Shown here in pieces: positions 46,731-63,059 of a stretch of 64,000 nucleotides of DNA. The translations under genes were made by a program, and so were the position numbers. The stretch's first letter is position 1, and each line of letters starts with the position of its first letter. This DNA is from Bradyrhizobium algeriense (GTDB lineage Bacteria; Pseudomonadota; Alphaproteobacteria; Rhizobiales; Xanthobacteraceae): contig NZ_PYCN01000003.1 of the NCBI RefSeq assembly GCF_003062295.1, forward strand, positions 496,001-560,000, given 5' to 3'. The notes beneath the pieces were generated by a model. That model was not told the origin of the DNA, made no database searches, and saw only the letters and a program-made list of their open reading frames with translations.

Positions 46731-46813
46731 GATCTGCTGGTCTGGGCTTCTCCTGTGATCGAGAATGGGTACTCCGAAAGGGTCGAGCCGCGGACCGGTT
46801 CAAAATACTATGG
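46731..46813 (+). promoter_or_regulatory. EPS promoter-like element, copy A
   Basis: Core 46761-46813: GGGTACTCCGAAAGGGTCGA, then the near-palindrome GGACCGGTTC (46792-46801), then the -10-like TACTATGG. The homology to copy C continues about 35 bp upstream (CTGGTCTGGGCTTCTCC). It lies 63 bp upstream of the GTG of the glycosyltransferase at 46876, in its orientation. Confidence 0.65.
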
Positions 46814-52579: not shown

Positions 52580-52632
52580 GCATAATTCAAAACTCGCGCC
52601 ATGTGTGGACCCTTTGGGATTACCCACATCGG
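52580..52632 (-). promoter_or_regulatory. EPS promoter-like element, copy D (partial)
   Basis: GTGGGTAATCCCAAAGGGTC followed, after a diverged centre, by the -10-like GAATTATGC. It lacks the GGACCGG palindrome of the other copies. It is oriented leftward, about 37 bp before the lyase-like start. Confidence 0.5.
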
Positions 52633-54478: not shown

Positions 54479-54531
54479 CATAAATCCATTGAGCCGGTCC
54501 GCTGCTCGACCTTTCGGGTTACCCAATATTC
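54479..54531 (-). promoter_or_regulatory. EPS promoter-like element, copy B
   Basis: Leftward: TTGGGTAACCCGAAAGGTCG, then GGACCGGCTC (54491-54500), then the -10-like ATTTATGG, 27 bp before the acyltransferase start codon. Spacing and parts match copies A and C. Confidence 0.65.
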
Positions 54532-55983: not shown

Positions 55984-56310
55984 CACGGTCGAACGCAGAT
56001 CCGCAGATATGCGAGCTGCCTCGAAGGTGCTTATCGGTCTGCTGGCATATGTGATTTCCGGACCCGAACTGACTGTTACGAAGGAAGGGTAATCAGAGAC
56101 TAAAAATAGTAAGCTACAGGTGGCGTTCCTTTTTTGCCTCGCGCTTGGCTTGATGTACCGTGGCCGCCGACTGTTTCTACCTTCCCGGTACGATCATCAT
56201 TTATCCCATGACTGGCGCGATCTCACCTTGAGATTGAACATGCCGAGCGTCGGATACTTGGCGCCGACTTCATTGCTTTTTTCTTTGCGCAATCACGGTG
56301 GGGCGTCTCT
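55984..56310. other. Intergenic region, no gene seen
   Basis: About 330 bp following the glycosyltransferase. No gene or terminator is clear before promoter-like element C begins. Confidence 0.35.
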
Positions 56311-56402
56311 ACCATTCGCCGACGGGCTGGTCTCGGCTTCTCGTCGATCGAGAATGGGTAATCCGAATGGGTCCGAGCCACGAACCGGTCCAAGGGACTA
56401 TG
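56311..56402 (+). promoter_or_regulatory. EPS promoter-like element, copy C
   Basis: Core 56350-56402: GGGTAATCCGAATGGGTCCG, GAACCGGTCC (56382-56391) and the -10-like GACTATGC. The upstream flank (CTGGTCTCGGCTTCTC) also matches copy A. It is oriented rightward, about 165 bp before the wecB-wecC fusion. Confidence 0.65.
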
Positions 56403-56568
56403 CTTGCCCGGCTTTTTCAAGGATGCGCAAACTCTCCGGCATTTTGTACCGGCAATTACTCAGCCCGCAAACACCTTGAACGGGCGCAGCTGTGCGATAC
56501 GCAAAGCCCTGAGCCACCGCGGGCAAAGCGTAGTGACATTTGGTTGAGAAGCCTCTCATGGAGGACCG

Positions 56569-58926
56569 ATGAAAATCGCCATTCTGGTTGGAACTCGCCC
56601 GGAAATCATCAAAATGGCGCCGGTTATCCGCGAATGCCAGAAGCGAAAACTCGATTACCTCATCATCCATTCGAAGCAACATTACTCCGAGAGACTCGAC
56701 GGGATCTTTTTCTCGGAACTCGATCTTCCCGCACCGAAGTACAATTTGAATGTCGGCTCCGGCGGTCACGCGAACCAAACGGGCCGCATATTGATCGCGC
56801 TTGAGCCGATCCTGATGTCGGAGAAGCCCGATGTATTGCTCGTTCAAGGAGATACGAACACCGTGGTGGCAGGCGCACTCGCGGCGCGCAAACTTCATAT
56901 CAAGGTCGGGCATATCGAGGCCGGATTGCGCTCGTTTGACCAAACGATGCCGGAAGAAAGCAACCGAATCATCGCCGATCATATTTCGGATTATCTTTTT
57001 GCTGTCACCGACTTGCAGGTCGGTTACCTTAAAAAAGAAGGTCTTCCGGATTCGAAAATCTTCAAGGTCGGTAACACGATCGTCGACGCTTTACTTTCTC
57101 ACCGGGTCCGCGCGGAGAAAACGAGTCAGATTCTTTCTGAACTGAAATTACAAACGAAGGGATATTACCTCCTTACGTCCCACCGGGCCGCGAACGTCGA
57201 TGATCCGGATGCGCTGAAGGAAATCATCCAACTGATTGCGAAAATCCCCGGCCAAGTGTGCTGGCCGATCCACTATCGCACACAGAAGGTTCTCAAGGAA
57301 AACAAGATTGATTTGCCTGGGAATCTGACCTGGACCGACCCAGTCGGCTATTCGGATTTCCTGAATTTGCTTTCGAATTGCACCGCCGTTATTACTGATT
57401 CCGGCGGTGTCCAGGAAGAAGCTTGTATCCTCGGCGTACCTTGCGTGACGATTCGCGATAACACGGAACGGCCTGAAACCGTCGACGTCGGCGCGAATGT
57501 TTTGGTACACCGAGATGCGGAGGCGATGGTCGCGGCTCTCAATCGCCCGATGACCCCTTGGACGAATCCGTTTGGAGACGGCCACACCGCCGAGAGAATT
57601 CTCAACATCGTCATGGACCAACATGTGCAGCCGGTGCCGCAAAAGCAGGATACCGTTTGCGTTGTGGGCCTTGGCTACATGGGACTTCCGACGTCCCTCT
57701 TGTTTGCGAACGCGGGCATAAAGGTCGCCGGCTTTGATCTCAGCGAGAAGAAAGTGAATGAGATCAACAGCGGCCACTGCCCGTTCGAAGAAACCGGCAT
57801 TCCGGAATTGTTGACGGCGGCCTTGAAGACGGGAAACTTCAAAGCTCAAACGAAGCCTGCGGCAGCGGACGTTTTCGTTGTGGCAGTACCGACCCCGCAC
57901 GAAAATAAGAAATGCGATTTGTCCTTCGTTCTTTCGGCCGTGACCAGCCTGCTTCCCGTTATGAAAGACGGAAATCTCCTTATCATCGAATCGACGATCA
58001 AGCCGAAGACCTGTGAAGATATCGTACTTCCAATCCTCCAATCGAAACATTTGAAAGTCGAAGTCGCGCATTGTCCGGAGCGAGCGATTCCCGGCAACAC
58101 GCTCCATGAGATTGTGCACAATGATCGCATCATCGGTGCCATGTCGCCGGAACCAGCCCAGAGAGCGGCGCGCCTTTATTCGACATTCGCGAAGGGTGCG
58201 ATTCACCAGACAAACCTCGTGACGGCGGAGTGCGTAAAGCTCATGGAAAATACTTTCCGCGACGTCAATATCGCTCTCGCGAACGAGTTTTCCCTGATTG
58301 CCGATAGATTCAGGTTCGACATCTCGGCTGCGATTCAGCTTGCGAACAAACATCCGCGCGTCGACATTTTGCAACCGGGAATAGGCGTCGGGGGCCACTG
58401 CATCGCCATCGATCCGTGGTTCTTGACCGAAGACATCGGCGGTGATTTGAATCTTATAAGAACGGCGCGCGAACTGAATGACGAAATGCCGAAGCGCACC
58501 GCCGAGCGAATTCAAAACAAGATCGCCTCGTCCGCCAGGAAAATCGGAATTTTGGGAGTGAGTTACAAGCCGGATGTTGACGATGCTCGCGAAACTCCGG
58601 CTTTGGAGGTCGCAAGGCTTCTATCGAAAAGATACGAAATCCGCTGCCACGATCCCTTCGTGAAAGATTGGGATCTCGACCTCTTCCCCATCGAAGAAGT
58701 CGATGGCTGGGCGGACGTGCTGGTCATTCTTTCGAATCATACGGTCTACGCATCCAGGAAATTCGGATCCCCGCTGCTTTCGTTTGAAAAGTTGATCAAC
58801 GCCGAGGTGACCCAGGACCGGCGAACCGTGGCAATCCGGGCTAGGAGAAGCCGTATCCGAACTCAATCGCGGCGTATCAATGATGGACGACCTCGTTCAG
58901 AGACAGATGTTCAACAAGCTTCATAG
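56569..58926 (+). CDS. Bifunctional UDP-GlcNAc 2-epimerase / UDP-ManNAc dehydrogenase (WecB-WecC fusion)
   Basis: 785 residues joining two enzymes usually made separately. Residues 1-355 are WecB: VGTRPEIIKMAPVIREC, HIEAGLRSFDQTMPEESNRI, SHRAANVDD, TDSGGVQEE and NTERPETVDVG. After a short linker (QPVPQKQD), residues ~363-765 are WecC: VCVVGLGYMGLP (NAD), ESTIKPKT, CPERAIPGN, KLMENTFRDVNIALANE and the catalytic Cys in GVGGHCIAIDPW. It would convert UDP-GlcNAc to UDP-ManNAcA. Base composition is AT-richer than its neighbours, suggesting transfer. The last ~35 residues are unrelated and Arg-rich, and the usual final VxDTRN motif is missing, so the 3' end was probably replaced by rearrangement. 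That end is not catalytic, so activity may survive. Confidence 0.92.
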   Translation: MKIAILVGTRPEIIKMAPVIRECQKRKLDYLIIHSKQHYSERLDGIFFSELDLPAPKYNLNVGSGGHANQTGRILIALEPILMSEKPDVLLVQGDTNTVVAGALAARKLHIKVGHIEAGLRSFDQTMPEESNRIIADHISDYLFAVTDLQVGYLKKEGLPDSKIFKVGNTIVDALLSHRVRAEKTSQILSELKLQTKGYYLLTSHRAANVDDPDALKEIIQLIAKIPGQVCWPIHYRTQKVLKENKIDLPGNLTWTDPVGYSDFLNLLSNCTAVITDSGGVQEEACILGVPCVTIRDNTERPETVDVGANVLVHRDAEAMVAALNRPMTPWTNPFGDGHTAERILNIVMDQHVQPVPQKQDTVCVVGLGYMGLPTSLLFANAGIKVAGFDLSEKKVNEINSGHCPFEETGIPELLTAALKTGNFKAQTKPAAADVFVVAVPTPHENKKCDLSFVLSAVTSLLPVMKDGNLLIIESTIKPKTCEDIVLPILQSKHLKVEVAHCPERAIPGNTLHEIVHNDRIIGAMSPEPAQRAARLYSTFAKGAIHQTNLVTAECVKLMENTFRDVNIALANEFSLIADRFRFDISAAIQLANKHPRVDILQPGIGVGGHCIAIDPWFLTEDIGGDLNLIRTARELNDEMPKRTAERIQNKIASSARKIGILGVSYKPDVDDARETPALEVARLLSKRYEIRCHDPFVKDWDLDLFPIEEVDGWADVLVILSNHTVYASRKFGSPLLSFEKLINAEVTQDRRTVAIRARRSRIRTQSRRINDGRPRSETDVQQAS

Positions 58927-58935
58927 GCAATCTGC

Positions 58936-59078
58936 GCCGCGGCAATGGACAAGATCCTTCCGCCGAAGTCGTGCGGCGGAAAACGGTCGGATTCCGTGTG
59001 CTGGTCGCAGAATGGTTTAGAGGCCCTTACCGTGATTTCGTACAGGACATGCTGGTGAGCCGAGCTTCCAGTTTAGCG
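58936..59078 (+). pseudogene. Inverted duplicate of an asnB segment
   Basis: This stretch (AATGGACAAGATCCTTCCGC...) matches the minus strand at 59544-59686 inside the AsnB-like gene, with scattered substitutions. It encodes a broken MDKILPP...GFRVLVAEWFRGPYRDFVQD. It ends where the IS66 remnant begins. Confidence 0.9.
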
Positions 59079-59414
59079 TCGAACTCGAGATCAACGGCCT
59101 CGCGCCGCAGGAGTGTTTGCGCGTGCGCCAGGAGCGTAGCCAACCCTTGATCGTCGAGTTGGAGGCGTGGTTGTGTGAACAGCGCGCCAAGCTCTCCAAG
59201 AACAGCGATACGACCAAGCCAATCAATTACTGCCTCAGCCGCTGGAATGCAGCCATCCGCTCTCTTGATGATGGCGCCTGGGCATGTCGAACAATGCCGC
59301 CGAAACGCGAGCTACGCTCCGATGAGAGCGGCCGGCGCGCGGCTGCGATCTACAGTCAAAATAGTTCGATCGCCCGGACTCCGCAGACGGAGTCAAAAAG
59401 CGAGCCGGTCATTT
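59079..59414 (+). pseudogene. IS66-family transposase (TnpC) C-terminal remnant
   Basis: The frame reads QERSQPLIVELEAWLCEQRA, then KLSKNSDTTKPINYCLSRWN and LDDGAWA. This is the end of the IS66 TnpC DDE domain (xxRxxxSxPxxxxLxxWLxxQRxxLSxxNDTxKAINYxLxRWxAxxRFLDDGR). A frameshift follows near 59280 (SNNAAE region), then RRAAAIYS. The N-terminal four-fifths are absent. Confidence 0.85.
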
Positions 59415-61289
59415 TCATGTGCACTTGAATGTACGCAAGAAGATCTCGAGATTTATCAATGACCAAAGATTCTTCTCGTGGTTCTGTCGACCGCTAAGGT
59501 GCTCTGTCACAAGCCTACGGAGCCCAGGGCCGCTTATCATTTGCGCTAAACTGGAGGTTTCGCTCACCAGCATGTCCTGCACGAAATCACGGTAAGGGCC
59601 TCTAAACCATTCTCCGATCGGCACACGGAATCCTATCTTTTTCCGCCGTACGATCTCCGGTGGAAGGATCTTGTCCATTGCCGCGCGCAGCACAGTCTTG
59701 CCGCCCTTGCCTCCCGTCAGAAATTGGTCCGGAAAGCGGGCCACGACGCCGGCCAGTATCGTGTCCATAAATGGCATCCGGCCCTCGATCGACCCCGCCA
59801 TCATCATTCGATCGCCTCGTTCCAACAGATCATCTGGAAGCCAGGACGTCTGATCGAAGAATAGTGTACGACGCAGACTAGATTTGAGCCCAGACGAGTA
59901 CGGATAGACGTCTGGCGGCGTTGCCGACAGGGGCCGGCCTAGCATCGCCTCAACTTCAGCAACCGTAGTGCCGCCGAACCACACTCGCATTCGGTTCACA
60001 AGGTCGCGCTCGCCCGCGGCCAACGCAAGAATCTTTATGCGCCTCATCCCATAGGGCAATGAACGCACCAGCGGATAGATCAGCCGCTCGTGCAACAGCC
60101 GGGGCATCAGCCATTGGTACAGACCTATCCATTGCTCAGCCCGATGCTTCGGATATCCACCCATCAACTCATCGGCGCCTTCTCCCGTGAGTACCATCTT
60201 CACGCTGCTAGAGGCCATCTCCGAAAGCATGAAGATCGGGATGTCAGATGTCTCGCTGACCGGAGCACCACGGCGCAAGACGGCGGTTGACCAATGTTCC
60301 ATGAAGGAGTCGGGTTCGACGAATAGTTCATTGTGAATCGTACCGAACTGACCTGAAACGACGCGCGCATGATCGAGCTCCGAATATTCCGCCTCCCGAA
60401 AGCCTACTGAGAAAGTTCGCACGGGCTCCGCGCTATGCCTAACCATGGTTGCCACGACCGCCGACGAGTCAATGCCCCCCGAGAGATAAGCGCCAAACGG
60501 CGCGTCGCTACGCATGCGAATGCGAACAGCCTCATCGAATGCCCCTTCGAACAGGCGAATTGCATCGTCGAAGGACTTAACGTCCGGCACTGTTGTCGCA
60601 AACGGTGGCGTGAAATAGCGTGTCGTTCTCAGCGTTCCGCCCTGCCATACGGCATAGTGACCAGGCTGCAGCTTCTTCACCGTGCGGAAAAAAGTGGAAG
60701 GTCCCGGAACATAACGATTAAGAAGATAGTGGCCCAGCGCTTCGGAATCGAACGCTCGGTTAAAGCCCGGAAACTGAACGAGCGGCTCAATTTCCGAGCC
60801 GAAGAGAAGAACACCCTGCAGTTCGGCGAGAAACAGTGGTTTTTTGCCGAAGGCGTCGCGTGCAAGTACTAGTCGCTGCTCTGCTTCATCCCACAACGCA
60901 AAGCCGAACATGCCGCGCAATCTGCGTACTGCGTGGAGCTGCCAGGCGCGATATGCTTCGATAAGCACCTCCGTGTCAGAGTTCGTGCGAAAACGATGGC
61001 CAAGGGCAACGAGTTCCTCTCGCAGTTCGAGGTAATTATAGATTTCGCCGTTGAGGATTAAGGTGAAGCGGCCATCCTCACTCGACATTGGTTGCGCGCC
61101 GCCACCGATGTCAATGATCGAGAGCCGGCGGTGGCCGAGACCGATTTGAAATCGCTCATCAGTCGTCTTGTAAAGCCGGTAGCCCGAGCCGTCCGGCCCC
61201 CGATGAGCCAACAAATCGGTAAGGCTGACAAGAGTCTTGCGATCCTGATGCGTCGCGGCCCCAAGAACCCATCCAAATATCCCACACAT
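59415..61289 (-). CDS. asnB: Asparagine synthetase (glutamine-hydrolysing) AsnB-like amidotransferase
   Basis: 624 residues. Cys2 after the initiator Met is the glutaminase nucleophile (MCGIFGWVLG); other glutaminase motifs are LAHRGPDGSGY, GHRRLSIIDI and LNGEIYNY. The synthetase half has the PP-loop SGGIDSS (about 263), LTGEGADELMGGYPKH and RGDRMMMAGSIEGRMPFMD. It transfers ammonia from glutamine to a carboxylate. In polysaccharide loci such paralogues often amidate a uronic acid instead of making free asparagine. The ManNAcA produced by WecB-WecC is a plausible substrate (inference). The 3' end abuts IS66 debris and ends in RTFKCT. Confidence 0.93.
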   Translation of the reverse strand: MCGIFGWVLGAATHQDRKTLVSLTDLLAHRGPDGSGYRLYKTTDERFQIGLGHRRLSIIDIGGGAQPMSSEDGRFTLILNGEIYNYLELREELVALGHRFRTNSDTEVLIEAYRAWQLHAVRRLRGMFGFALWDEAEQRLVLARDAFGKKPLFLAELQGVLLFGSEIEPLVQFPGFNRAFDSEALGHYLLNRYVPGPSTFFRTVKKLQPGHYAVWQGGTLRTTRYFTPPFATTVPDVKSFDDAIRLFEGAFDEAVRIRMRSDAPFGAYLSGGIDSSAVVATMVRHSAEPVRTFSVGFREAEYSELDHARVVSGQFGTIHNELFVEPDSFMEHWSTAVLRRGAPVSETSDIPIFMLSEMASSSVKMVLTGEGADELMGGYPKHRAEQWIGLYQWLMPRLLHERLIYPLVRSLPYGMRRIKILALAAGERDLVNRMRVWFGGTTVAEVEAMLGRPLSATPPDVYPYSSGLKSSLRRTLFFDQTSWLPDDLLERGDRMMMAGSIEGRMPFMDTILAGVVARFPDQFLTGGKGGKTVLRAAMDKILPPEIVRRKKIGFRVPIGEWFRGPYRDFVQDMLVSETSSLAQMISGPGLRRLVTEHLSGRQNHEKNLWSLINLEIFLRTFKCT

Positions 61290-61487: not shown

Positions 61488-62282
61488 TCACCCGCCCGCC
61501 TGGCTCGTTCCAGGCGGCAGCGCGCTGCTCGCTCGCGGTGCCATGCCCAGGCTCCGGCGTACAATAGCTTGGGCCAGAATTCCGGCGAACAACGTATTGG
61601 TCTTGGCATATCGCCACCACATGCGCCCCGGCTCCTGATAGACGCGGTACAGCCATTCGAGCCCAAGGTGCTGCATGCGAACCGGCGCCCGCCGTACTGC
61701 GCCGGCAAGAATATCGAACGCCCCACCGACCCCCATGATAAAGGGAACGCCGAGCGCATCGCGATGGGACGCAAGGAAGTGCTCTTTGCGCGGCGTCGGC
61801 ATGCCGATAAAAAGGCAGTCGGCGCGACTGGACCGAATTTCACAGACCACGTCGGCCTCCTGCTCGCGCGTGAAGTAACCGTCCCTGAGGCCTGCGAACG
61901 CGATCGAGGGATGCTTGTCGAGGACTCGCTGCGCGGCCTGTTGCAACACGCCGGGCGTCGCCCCGAGAAAATACGGTTTGAAGCCCTCGCTTGCACAGAG
62001 TGCGAGAAGCTCGGTGAGCAGATCGATGCCGGTTACCCGCGACTTGACCGGCAGGCCGAGTGCCCGCGCGCCCCACACGATGCCCATGCCATCGATGCTG
62101 ATCACATCGCTACTAGCGACATCGGCAGCGAGCACCGGATCAAAGCGCATGCTGACGAACTTGTTGACGTTGAGCGCAACGTGTTGCAAGCGCTGCTGGC
62201 TATGCATCGCCTTGCGTGCGAGTTCGACCGTATCGGCCATCGTCAGGACATCAATGGGGCACCCTAGAAGTGACGCACGCAT
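61488..62282 (-). CDS. WecG/TagA/CpsF-family glycosyltransferase
   Basis: 264 residues. Family motifs are NVNKFVSMRFDPVLAADVAS, ISIDGMGIVWGARALGLPVK, RVTGIDLLTELLALC, the nucleotide-binding DCLFIGMPTPRKEHFL and MGVGGAFDILAGAVRRAPVR with a closing LEWLYRVYQEPGRMWWRY. These enzymes transfer ManNAc or ManNAcA to lipid-linked GlcNAc. Together with the WecB-WecC fusion this supports a ManNAc(A)-containing repeat unit. A GTG 6 nt upstream is an alternative start. Confidence 0.92.
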   Translation of the reverse strand: MRASLLGCPIDVLTMADTVELARKAMHSQQRLQHVALNVNKFVSMRFDPVLAADVASSDVISIDGMGIVWGARALGLPVKSRVTGIDLLTELLALCASEGFKPYFLGATPGVLQQAAQRVLDKHPSIAFAGLRDGYFTREQEADVVCEIRSSRADCLFIGMPTPRKEHFLASHRDALGVPFIMGVGGAFDILAGAVRRAPVRMQHLGLEWLYRVYQEPGRMWWRYAKTNTLFAGILAQAIVRRSLGMAPRASSALPPGTSQAGG

Positions 62283-63059
62283 CTCCACCCCCGCGGCCGC
62301 TAGCCAAGTCTGAACACCTCAAGATTCATCCCACTACAATAGCATTCGGGCGTGCCGAGCTAGTGCGAGCAAAAGGGTTGTTACGGGGGCTGAGTGGCTA
62401 CCCAGTTGTGAGTACCCAGCTGCCGTCTACGTAAGGCCGCAAGCTGAACATCGAGCCGAGCCGATGCGCATTGAAAACGGATTGGAATCAGGCGGCGCCA
62501 TTAGGTAGTGGATGCAAGTTTCTACCCAGCTGCTACCTGGTGTGGCGCGAAGGTAGCACGAACATTACCCCGTGTTGCATACTACCCTTGGCGTCGGGGA
62601 AGCCCGACATCACAAATTTCGACGAAGCGGTTAGGACGTTCAGTAACGCAACTATTGGAGCGAACGTCGTCTCACTACGGCAAACGTCCGGGTGAATCGT
62701 TGGAAGGCTGCGAAATTCGCGTTCTATCGGACTGTCGCTATAAGGCAGGCCGCGGGTCTGTCCTCCCTACGTCGTCCAATCAAGCAGGATCATCTTTCAT
62801 TTAGCGCTCCACATTGGATTAGAAGCCGGTCTCGCCAGCTGGACACCACGCTTGTGAGTAAGCCACTAAAAGTAGTAAGGTCATAGAGAGAGCCTTAGGA
62901 TCTTCAGGCTGGTTGGGTACCAAGGATATTATCGCGCATCGCTGCGCAGCGTTCTCAGAAGAGCGTCGGATTGATCTTCGCCGTTAAAGCCCGCACTGTT
63001 AGGCGGGAATTGCCAAGGATGGCTCCGCCGGAGCTTATTGACGGACTTCGGTGTATTTG
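62283..63059. other. Intergenic region, no gene seen
   Basis: About 780 bp. It contains the shared element at 62378-62416 and three TACCCAG-type boxes (62398, 62413 and 62522). No intact gene is present. It must hold the divergent promoters of wecG and the last glycosyltransferase gene. Confidence 0.4.
62378..62416 (-). repeat. Element shared with 43113-43151 (inverted copy)
   Basis: On the minus strand it reads GTACTCACAACTGGGTAGCC followed by ACTCAGCCCCCGT, matching 43113-43151. It lies about 100 bp upstream of wecG and points toward it, as the other copy points toward the flippase gene. Confidence 0.5.

Follow-up and report, generated by a model that had tools for sequence, protein, structure and literature searches.

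A fused UDP-GlcNAc 2-epimerase and UDP-ManNAc-type dehydrogenase gene in a polysaccharide locus of Bradyrhizobium algeriense

The 64,000 nucleotides of Bradyrhizobium algeriense DNA analysed here (the window, which lies within contig C271 of an 8.9-Mb genome) contain a gene in which an epimerase domain and a nucleotide-sugar dehydrogenase domain follow one another in a single open frame. The product is very probably a natural bifunctional enzyme that converts UDP-GlcNAc to UDP-ManNAcA for a surface polysaccharide, although the substrate, product, polymer and any kinetic coupling are inferred. Both reactions are textbook steps to UDP-ManNAcA, which goes into many capsules and into enterobacterial common antigen, and the one-chain epimerase-dehydrogenase is a variant of this well-known enzyme pair.

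Two domains in one open frame

The fused gene (56569..58926, forward strand) begins with an ATG at 56569, ends with its stop at 58926 and encodes 785 amino acids plus the stop in one frame, both halves of which are matched by Pfam and NCBIfam models. As the first-pass annotation had proposed, a WecB-like and a WecC-like domain are thus both complete in this frame. The non-hydrolysing UDP-GlcNAc 2-epimerase domain (residues ~1-350, 56569..57618), supported by TIGR00236, the structures 4neq and 4nes and dN/dS, is matched by Pfam Epimerase_2 over residues 22-348 (364 bits) and scores 375.8 bits against the wecB equivalog TIGR00236, for which the cut-off is 210.15 bits (residues 1-350, profile positions 1-364 of 366). 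The dehydrogenase domain (residues ~360-745, 57646..58803), supported by TIGR03026, Cap5O and dN/dS, carries the N, central and C domains of UDPG_MGDP_dh at residues 362-532, 552-638 and 660-730, all above the Pfam cut-offs (162.7, 80.6 and 47.9 bits). Between them lies a linker (residues ~351-359, 57619..57645), recognised as the gap between domain matches and as a stretch of low pLDDT, in agreement with the roughly eight residues originally suggested. The chain ends in a variable C-terminal tail (residues 746-785, 58804..58923), which is natural and whose length differs among relatives.

The name of the second half requires more caution. TIGR03026, a model of the nucleotide-sugar dehydrogenase subfamily, matches residues 362-729 at 389.2 bits (cut-off 189.8), and the best structural relative is the UDP-ManNAc dehydrogenase Cap5O; however, the half scores below the WecC equivalog NF008286 (338.5 vs 459), so that the original label WecC claims slightly too much, and likewise below NF040825, the archaeal type UDP-ManNAc dehydrogenase equivalog (332.9 vs 750). 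Because these equivalog cut-offs lie above its scores, we file it as a UDP-ManNAc-type dehydrogenase and not as WecC proper.

The genome holds one further epimerase (matching at 37%) and three further dehydrogenases (27-31%), and no second fused copy was found in it. An antisense open frame of 455 codons lies opposite the gene (57148-58515, reverse strand), is without a Pfam match and is probably a shadow frame. The gene had also been described as AT-richer than its surroundings, which is true only slightly: its GC content is 0.531, whereas the window as a whole has 0.590 and three neighbours have 0.541, 0.562 and 0.577.

Taxonomic spread of the fused frame

Genome searches, in which 2 to 4 candidates were scored per genome and thresholds beyond the genus were strict, place the fused architecture in two groups. 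Within Bradyrhizobium, a match covers both halves in 18 of 265 genomes, the present one included, and in every one of the 18 a frame that includes both domains stays open for at least 746 codons; the match crosses one stop in four of them, and since all 18 frames are unbroken over that length, this stop falls in the variable tail. Fifteen loci come from named contigs, and the frame is fused in 11 of them, all Bradyrhizobium, some of them from genomes also among the 18; three of the remaining loci match in nothing but the epimerase half, and the last (L017, Bacteriovoracaceae) begins at a contig edge inside the dehydrogenase half. The present genome is the sole carrier of an unbroken fused frame found among 248 genomes of the family (1e-60) and 297 of the order (1e-90), while a sample of 398 genomes of the phylum (1e-90) adds one other, G1063; five further spanning matches in that sample are interrupted by stops and represent separate genes.

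The second group is the gammaproteobacterial family of G1063, here called f83, where both halves are matched in 28 of 246 genomes at 52-55% identity. The two halves are fused in all 14 of the 28 genomes whose frame was read; the remaining 14 are known from search rows, four of which count 1-2 stops in the match with open frames of 754-766. No further fused family was found in the order and class of G1063 (247 genomes at 1e-140 and 258 at 1e-110, respectively). The 16S sequence of G1063 is nearest to Pseudoalteromonas (90.7%, in a plasmid collection with few chromosomes), which suggests that f83 is probably the marine family Alteromonadaceae.

This distribution bears on the possibility that a sequencing or assembly error deleted a stop codon and so joined two adjacent genes. 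Several other genomes do carry wecB and wecC as adjacent open frames in one reading frame with a stop between them, which is the arrangement that such an error would convert into a fusion. Yet the same frame recurs in 18 of the 265 genus genomes, on the 11 named contigs and in the 28 f83 genomes (14 of them read), and the join is conserved; many independent genomes therefore exclude the loss of a stop by sequencing error, and we regard an artefact as vanishingly improbable. Since the frame is the same throughout the 18 genomes, the resequencing near position 57630 that had been advised is not needed. The search for the taxonomic spread, also advised, thus identifies a minority of Bradyrhizobium together with a minority of f83.

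Elsewhere, the statement that epimerase and dehydrogenase are mostly separate genes is borne out, as the wecB/wecC pairs outside the fused clade whose open frames were examined all consist of two adjacent open frames. Several apparent fusions proved to be of this kind. For example, Sinorhizobium meliloti H20 gives one piece in tblastn and yet has two open frames of 396 and 430 codons, and the spanning matches with an internal stop at L052, L064-L068, L092 and L093 are separate adjacent genes when their open frames are examined. One place covering at least 80% of the query was found in 75 of 1090 records of a plasmid collection and in 4 of 44 of a phage collection, all at below 60% identity; among the best 20 of the 75 plasmid records, H2 and H20 were followed up and both have separate genes, while fused copies may occur among the others. 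In viral contigs, 14 loci were matched, all by the epimerase half alone. A decayed relative of the gene, interrupted by six stops and 50% identical over residues 300-600, is present in a further genome of the genus, G240 (L086; G240:C1:7180400-7181269).

Full-text literature searches found no description of a WecB-WecC-like fusion among the matches listed, a search including PEP-CTERM returned nothing, and a search for Bradyrhizobium with ManNAcA gave nothing to the point among the matches listed. The genomes are public, so architecture-database entries for the fusion probably exist. Three candidate papers were set aside: in the passages retrieved, the fused enzyme of PMC9723798 is Fae-Hps and not WecB-WecC, the Alteromonas paper PMC6361997 names wecB and wecC apart, and PMC11237513, on archaeal fusions, has a single unrelated passage for the terms sought.

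Selection and the 3' end of the gene

Purifying selection acts strongly on each half (dN/dS ~0.1) and is mostly absent from the linker and the tail. Comparison of the window with 11 relatives gives 0.06-0.22 for the epimerase half and 0.08-0.15 for the dehydrogenase half; values for the nine-codon linker are noisy (0.06-2.24), and those for the tail are 0.69-1.10 in five of the 11 pairs and not computable in the other six. The linker is variable among relatives and longer in the marine family f83. An AlphaFold model (mean pLDDT 71, pTM 0.47, 16 rows) falls below a pLDDT of 50 at linker residues 352-359 and to about 30 in the tail, with part of the dehydrogenase also at low confidence; as the model is mediocre, we make no claim on the arrangement of the domains.

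The first-pass annotation held that the gene had lost its natural 3' end to a rearrangement, which would make it a truncated and decaying gene. Rearranged DNA does lie directly downstream (58938-59685), starting 6-14 bases past the stop: between the fused gene and asnB are a partial, inverted duplicate of the 3' end of asnB (58938..59078), which is outside the gene and pairs with 59544-59685 at 89-94%, and an IS66-type transposase remnant (59117..59425, forward strand; PF03050, 37.9 bits, profile positions 199-273 of 284). Moreover, the Pfam match to the C domain ends at position 80/103. Against truncation, the DNA of the window from 58700 through the stop to ~58940 aligns with two relatives (L028/L090 and L006/L089) at ~83% each, so that homology runs past the stop. 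At the protein level, the tail can be aligned with that of B. jicamae PAC68, which has the same tail type, as does L006. Bradyrhizobium fused proteins share a common core, ~'...SPLLSFDKLINA', followed by tails of 2 to ~53 residues, and the marine f83 relatives stop close to the corresponding position ('...KPLLNTRG' in L084). The dehydrogenase half is, in addition, under the strong selection described above. Because the tail and stop are common to two relatives and the rearrangement begins only after the stop, the claim of a lost end does not stand: truncation is very unlikely, and the 3' end of the fused gene is natural as judged from these alignments. In four relatives (L006/L089, L015, L016 and L090), asnB adjoins the fused gene and points towards it, and there the only blastn match to the inverted copy is the asnB gene itself; in the other relatives examined, asnB is more distant or outside the stretch.

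Closest known enzymes and the predicted substrate

The solved structures nearest in sequence and fold are the M. jannaschii UDP-GlcNAc 2-epimerase for the first half and S. aureus Cap5O for the second. Residues 1-348 align with the M. jannaschii WecB/MnaA-type enzyme (4neq, 4nes) at 391 bits, with a Foldseek target TM of 0.88, whereas known WecB/MnaA epimerases are stand-alone proteins of ~370 amino acids and the window protein continues into a dehydrogenase. Likewise, residues 363-728 align with Cap5O (3ojl, 3ojo; 328 bits), whose cysteine motif GVGGHC..DP is also present in the window protein, and residues 363-732 align with P. horikoshii 4r16 (280 bits), but both of these are stand-alone proteins (431 and 418 amino acids in the PDB). 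Among gene pairs, those on haloarchaeal plasmids (Haladaptatus, L022) have the same order, wecB then wecC, but in two separate genes; the L022 epimerase (50% identical, 375 bits) is the nearest epimerase of any unfused pair seen, while its dehydrogenase (41%, 303 bits) is equalled or exceeded by some proteobacterial pairs, up to 316 bits. A different fusion offers a partial parallel: in it, an epimerase of such kind is reported to be joined to the enzyme that acts after it, and 4zht is a weak sequence match. Unlike in the present protein, the epimerase there is a hydrolysing one, the second part is a kinase and the product is another.

Residues of both predicted active sites are retained. When 10 fused proteins, drawn from the two lineages, are aligned, D95, E117, E129/E130 and H205 are invariant, as are K557, N561, C611 and D615. 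The epimerase motifs around the first set align with 4neq, and we take these residues to correspond to the WecB catalytic residues Asp95, Glu117, Glu131 and His213 (E. coli numbering). C611, D615, K557 and N561 line up with the same residues of Cap5O, and C611, K557 and N561 presumably serve as the catalytic cysteine in GxGGHCxxxDP and the conserved Lys/Asn.

On these comparisons, the N-terminal half would epimerise UDP-GlcNAc to UDP-ManNAc without hydrolysis, and the C-terminal half would convert UDP-ManNAc with two NAD+ to UDP-ManNAcA. The same architecture could in principle act on another sugar, such as a 2,3-diacetamido or other N-acyl UDP-hexose, and yield a different mannosaminuronic acid. 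UDP-2,3-diacetamido-glucuronic acid 2-epimerases are among the matches of the epimerase half, with 285 bits compared with 391 for the UDP-GlcNAc enzyme, and the score below the WecC equivalog cut-off leaves some room for such a substrate. In WbpI-type pathways, however, oxidation precedes epimerisation, which fits poorly with a UDP-ManNAc-type dehydrogenase, and the best matches in both sequence and fold are a UDP-GlcNAc 2-epimerase and a UDP-ManNAc dehydrogenase, with the wecB equivalog cut-off exceeded. Another sugar is therefore unlikely, and the route from UDP-GlcNAc to UDP-ManNAcA is the one that we prefer.

Phylogeny of the halves and the meaning of the fusion

Trees were built from 69 epimerase and 65 dehydrogenase sequences, each with 31 fused proteins, after identical, weak and short hits were dropped. 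The fused proteins form one clade in both trees (support 1.0 for the epimerase, 0.999 for the dehydrogenase). The clade also holds L082, a stand-alone protein, and L083, cut by a contig end, in the epimerase tree, and L017, likewise cut by a contig end, in the dehydrogenase tree. A single fusion with later transfer is the simplest reading of one clade in both trees, and the topology suggests one old fusion followed by transfer, in a sampling that is almost all Pseudomonadota. The stand-alone epimerase (L082:5304-6407, genome G1196 of f83) has 367 amino acids and no dehydrogenase beside it. The second half of the fusion has apparently been lost from it later, which indicates that the fusion is not indispensable.

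What the fusion provides is a separate question from what the enzyme makes. Tying epimerisation to oxidation would pull the product forward and fix the ratio at 1:1. According to a passage in PMC10919079, the equilibrium of a Campylobacter non-hydrolysing epimerase is 88:12, on the UDP-GlcNAc side. Since epimerisation favours UDP-GlcNAc, coupling to oxidation would help, although this is an argument and not a result. On balance we lean towards a plainer account of mechanism, compatible with a bifunctional enzyme, in which the fusion serves only equal dosage or shared oligomer assembly and the sites are independent, with neither channelling nor coupling. Both halves have stand-alone relatives, the linker is short, fast-evolving and of differing length between lineages, and a stand-alone epimerase is nested in the fused clade; nothing speaks directly against this account, but that the fusion has persisted in two lineages suggests that it brings some advantage. 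A natural enzyme with both activities on one chain would allow the coupling of an unfavourable epimerisation to an irreversible oxidation to be tested directly, would supply UDP-ManNAcA conveniently from a single enzyme, and would mark the transfer of polysaccharide modules between marine and soil bacteria.

In four of four wider loci of f83, the gene next to the fused one encodes a long protein that resembles a TPR protein (TPR by Pfam in L084); a PEP-CTERM protein is a neighbour in L084, and a sigma-54 response regulator and a histidine kinase are neighbours in L085. We take this neighbourhood to resemble PEP-CTERM exopolysaccharide systems. A bolder scenario, which we consider possible but doubt, is that a single ancient fusion created a true UDP-ManNAcA synthase passing UDP-ManNAc directly between its sites. 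In this scenario, the PEP-CTERM-associated exopolysaccharide loci of marine gammaproteobacteria were either where the fusion originated or a stage on its way, and it would have moved between these bacteria and soil Bradyrhizobium as a polysaccharide module open to exchange.

Surrounding locus and upstream element

The genes around the fused gene are those of a predicted surface polysaccharide locus: a flippase, glycosyltransferases, a polysaccharide lyase (with a second, sub-threshold one), an acyltransferase and a protein that matches O-antigen ligase below threshold, tentatively a polymerase or ligase. UDP-ManNAcA would enter the polysaccharide of this locus through the flippase, the tentative polymerase or ligase, the glycosyltransferases and a WecG-family transferase. 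The last of these, a WecG/TagA/CpsF-family glycosyltransferase (61488..62288, reverse strand; PF03808, 200 bits), lies 2.6 kb from the fused gene and is a candidate user of its product. The whole order of acyltransferase, glycosyltransferase, fused gene, asnB, WecG and glycosyltransferase is kept in L015. PF03808 occurs within ~13 kb of the fused gene in six of the 18 fused genomes, one of these being a fragment, and is present somewhere in all 36 genomes searched (the 18 fused and 18 hand-picked unfused controls), so that the link to the transferase is weak. The WecG-family gene beside asnB is in two pieces in L016 and reduced to a 60-residue remnant in L090, although L015 shows it as one match and the window copy is intact.

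The first-pass annotation also placed a promoter-like element ahead of the gene. The element is present as a 24-base sequence, GAGAATGGGTANYCCGAANGGGTC, at 56350..56373 on the forward strand, ~195 bases before the start, but no sigma-70 site turned up when 56000-59300 was scanned (0, with 1.5 expected). With up to 2 mismatches allowed, the 8.9-Mb genome contains just two copies (46761-46784 and 56350-56373), both in the polysaccharide locus. Weaker copies, with 2 mismatches to an 18-base core, occur at two further genes (52610-52627 and 54509-54526, both on the reverse strand). A loose pattern of the element has 6 matches in the window where 1.25 are expected, a count also reached by 1 of 100 shuffles. 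The element is likely a shared regulatory one. Its 20-base core lies upstream of the fused gene in L006, L016 and L028 and elsewhere in L010 and L086, and all four copies in the window are on the strand of the gene that they precede or of the open frame whose start they overlap.
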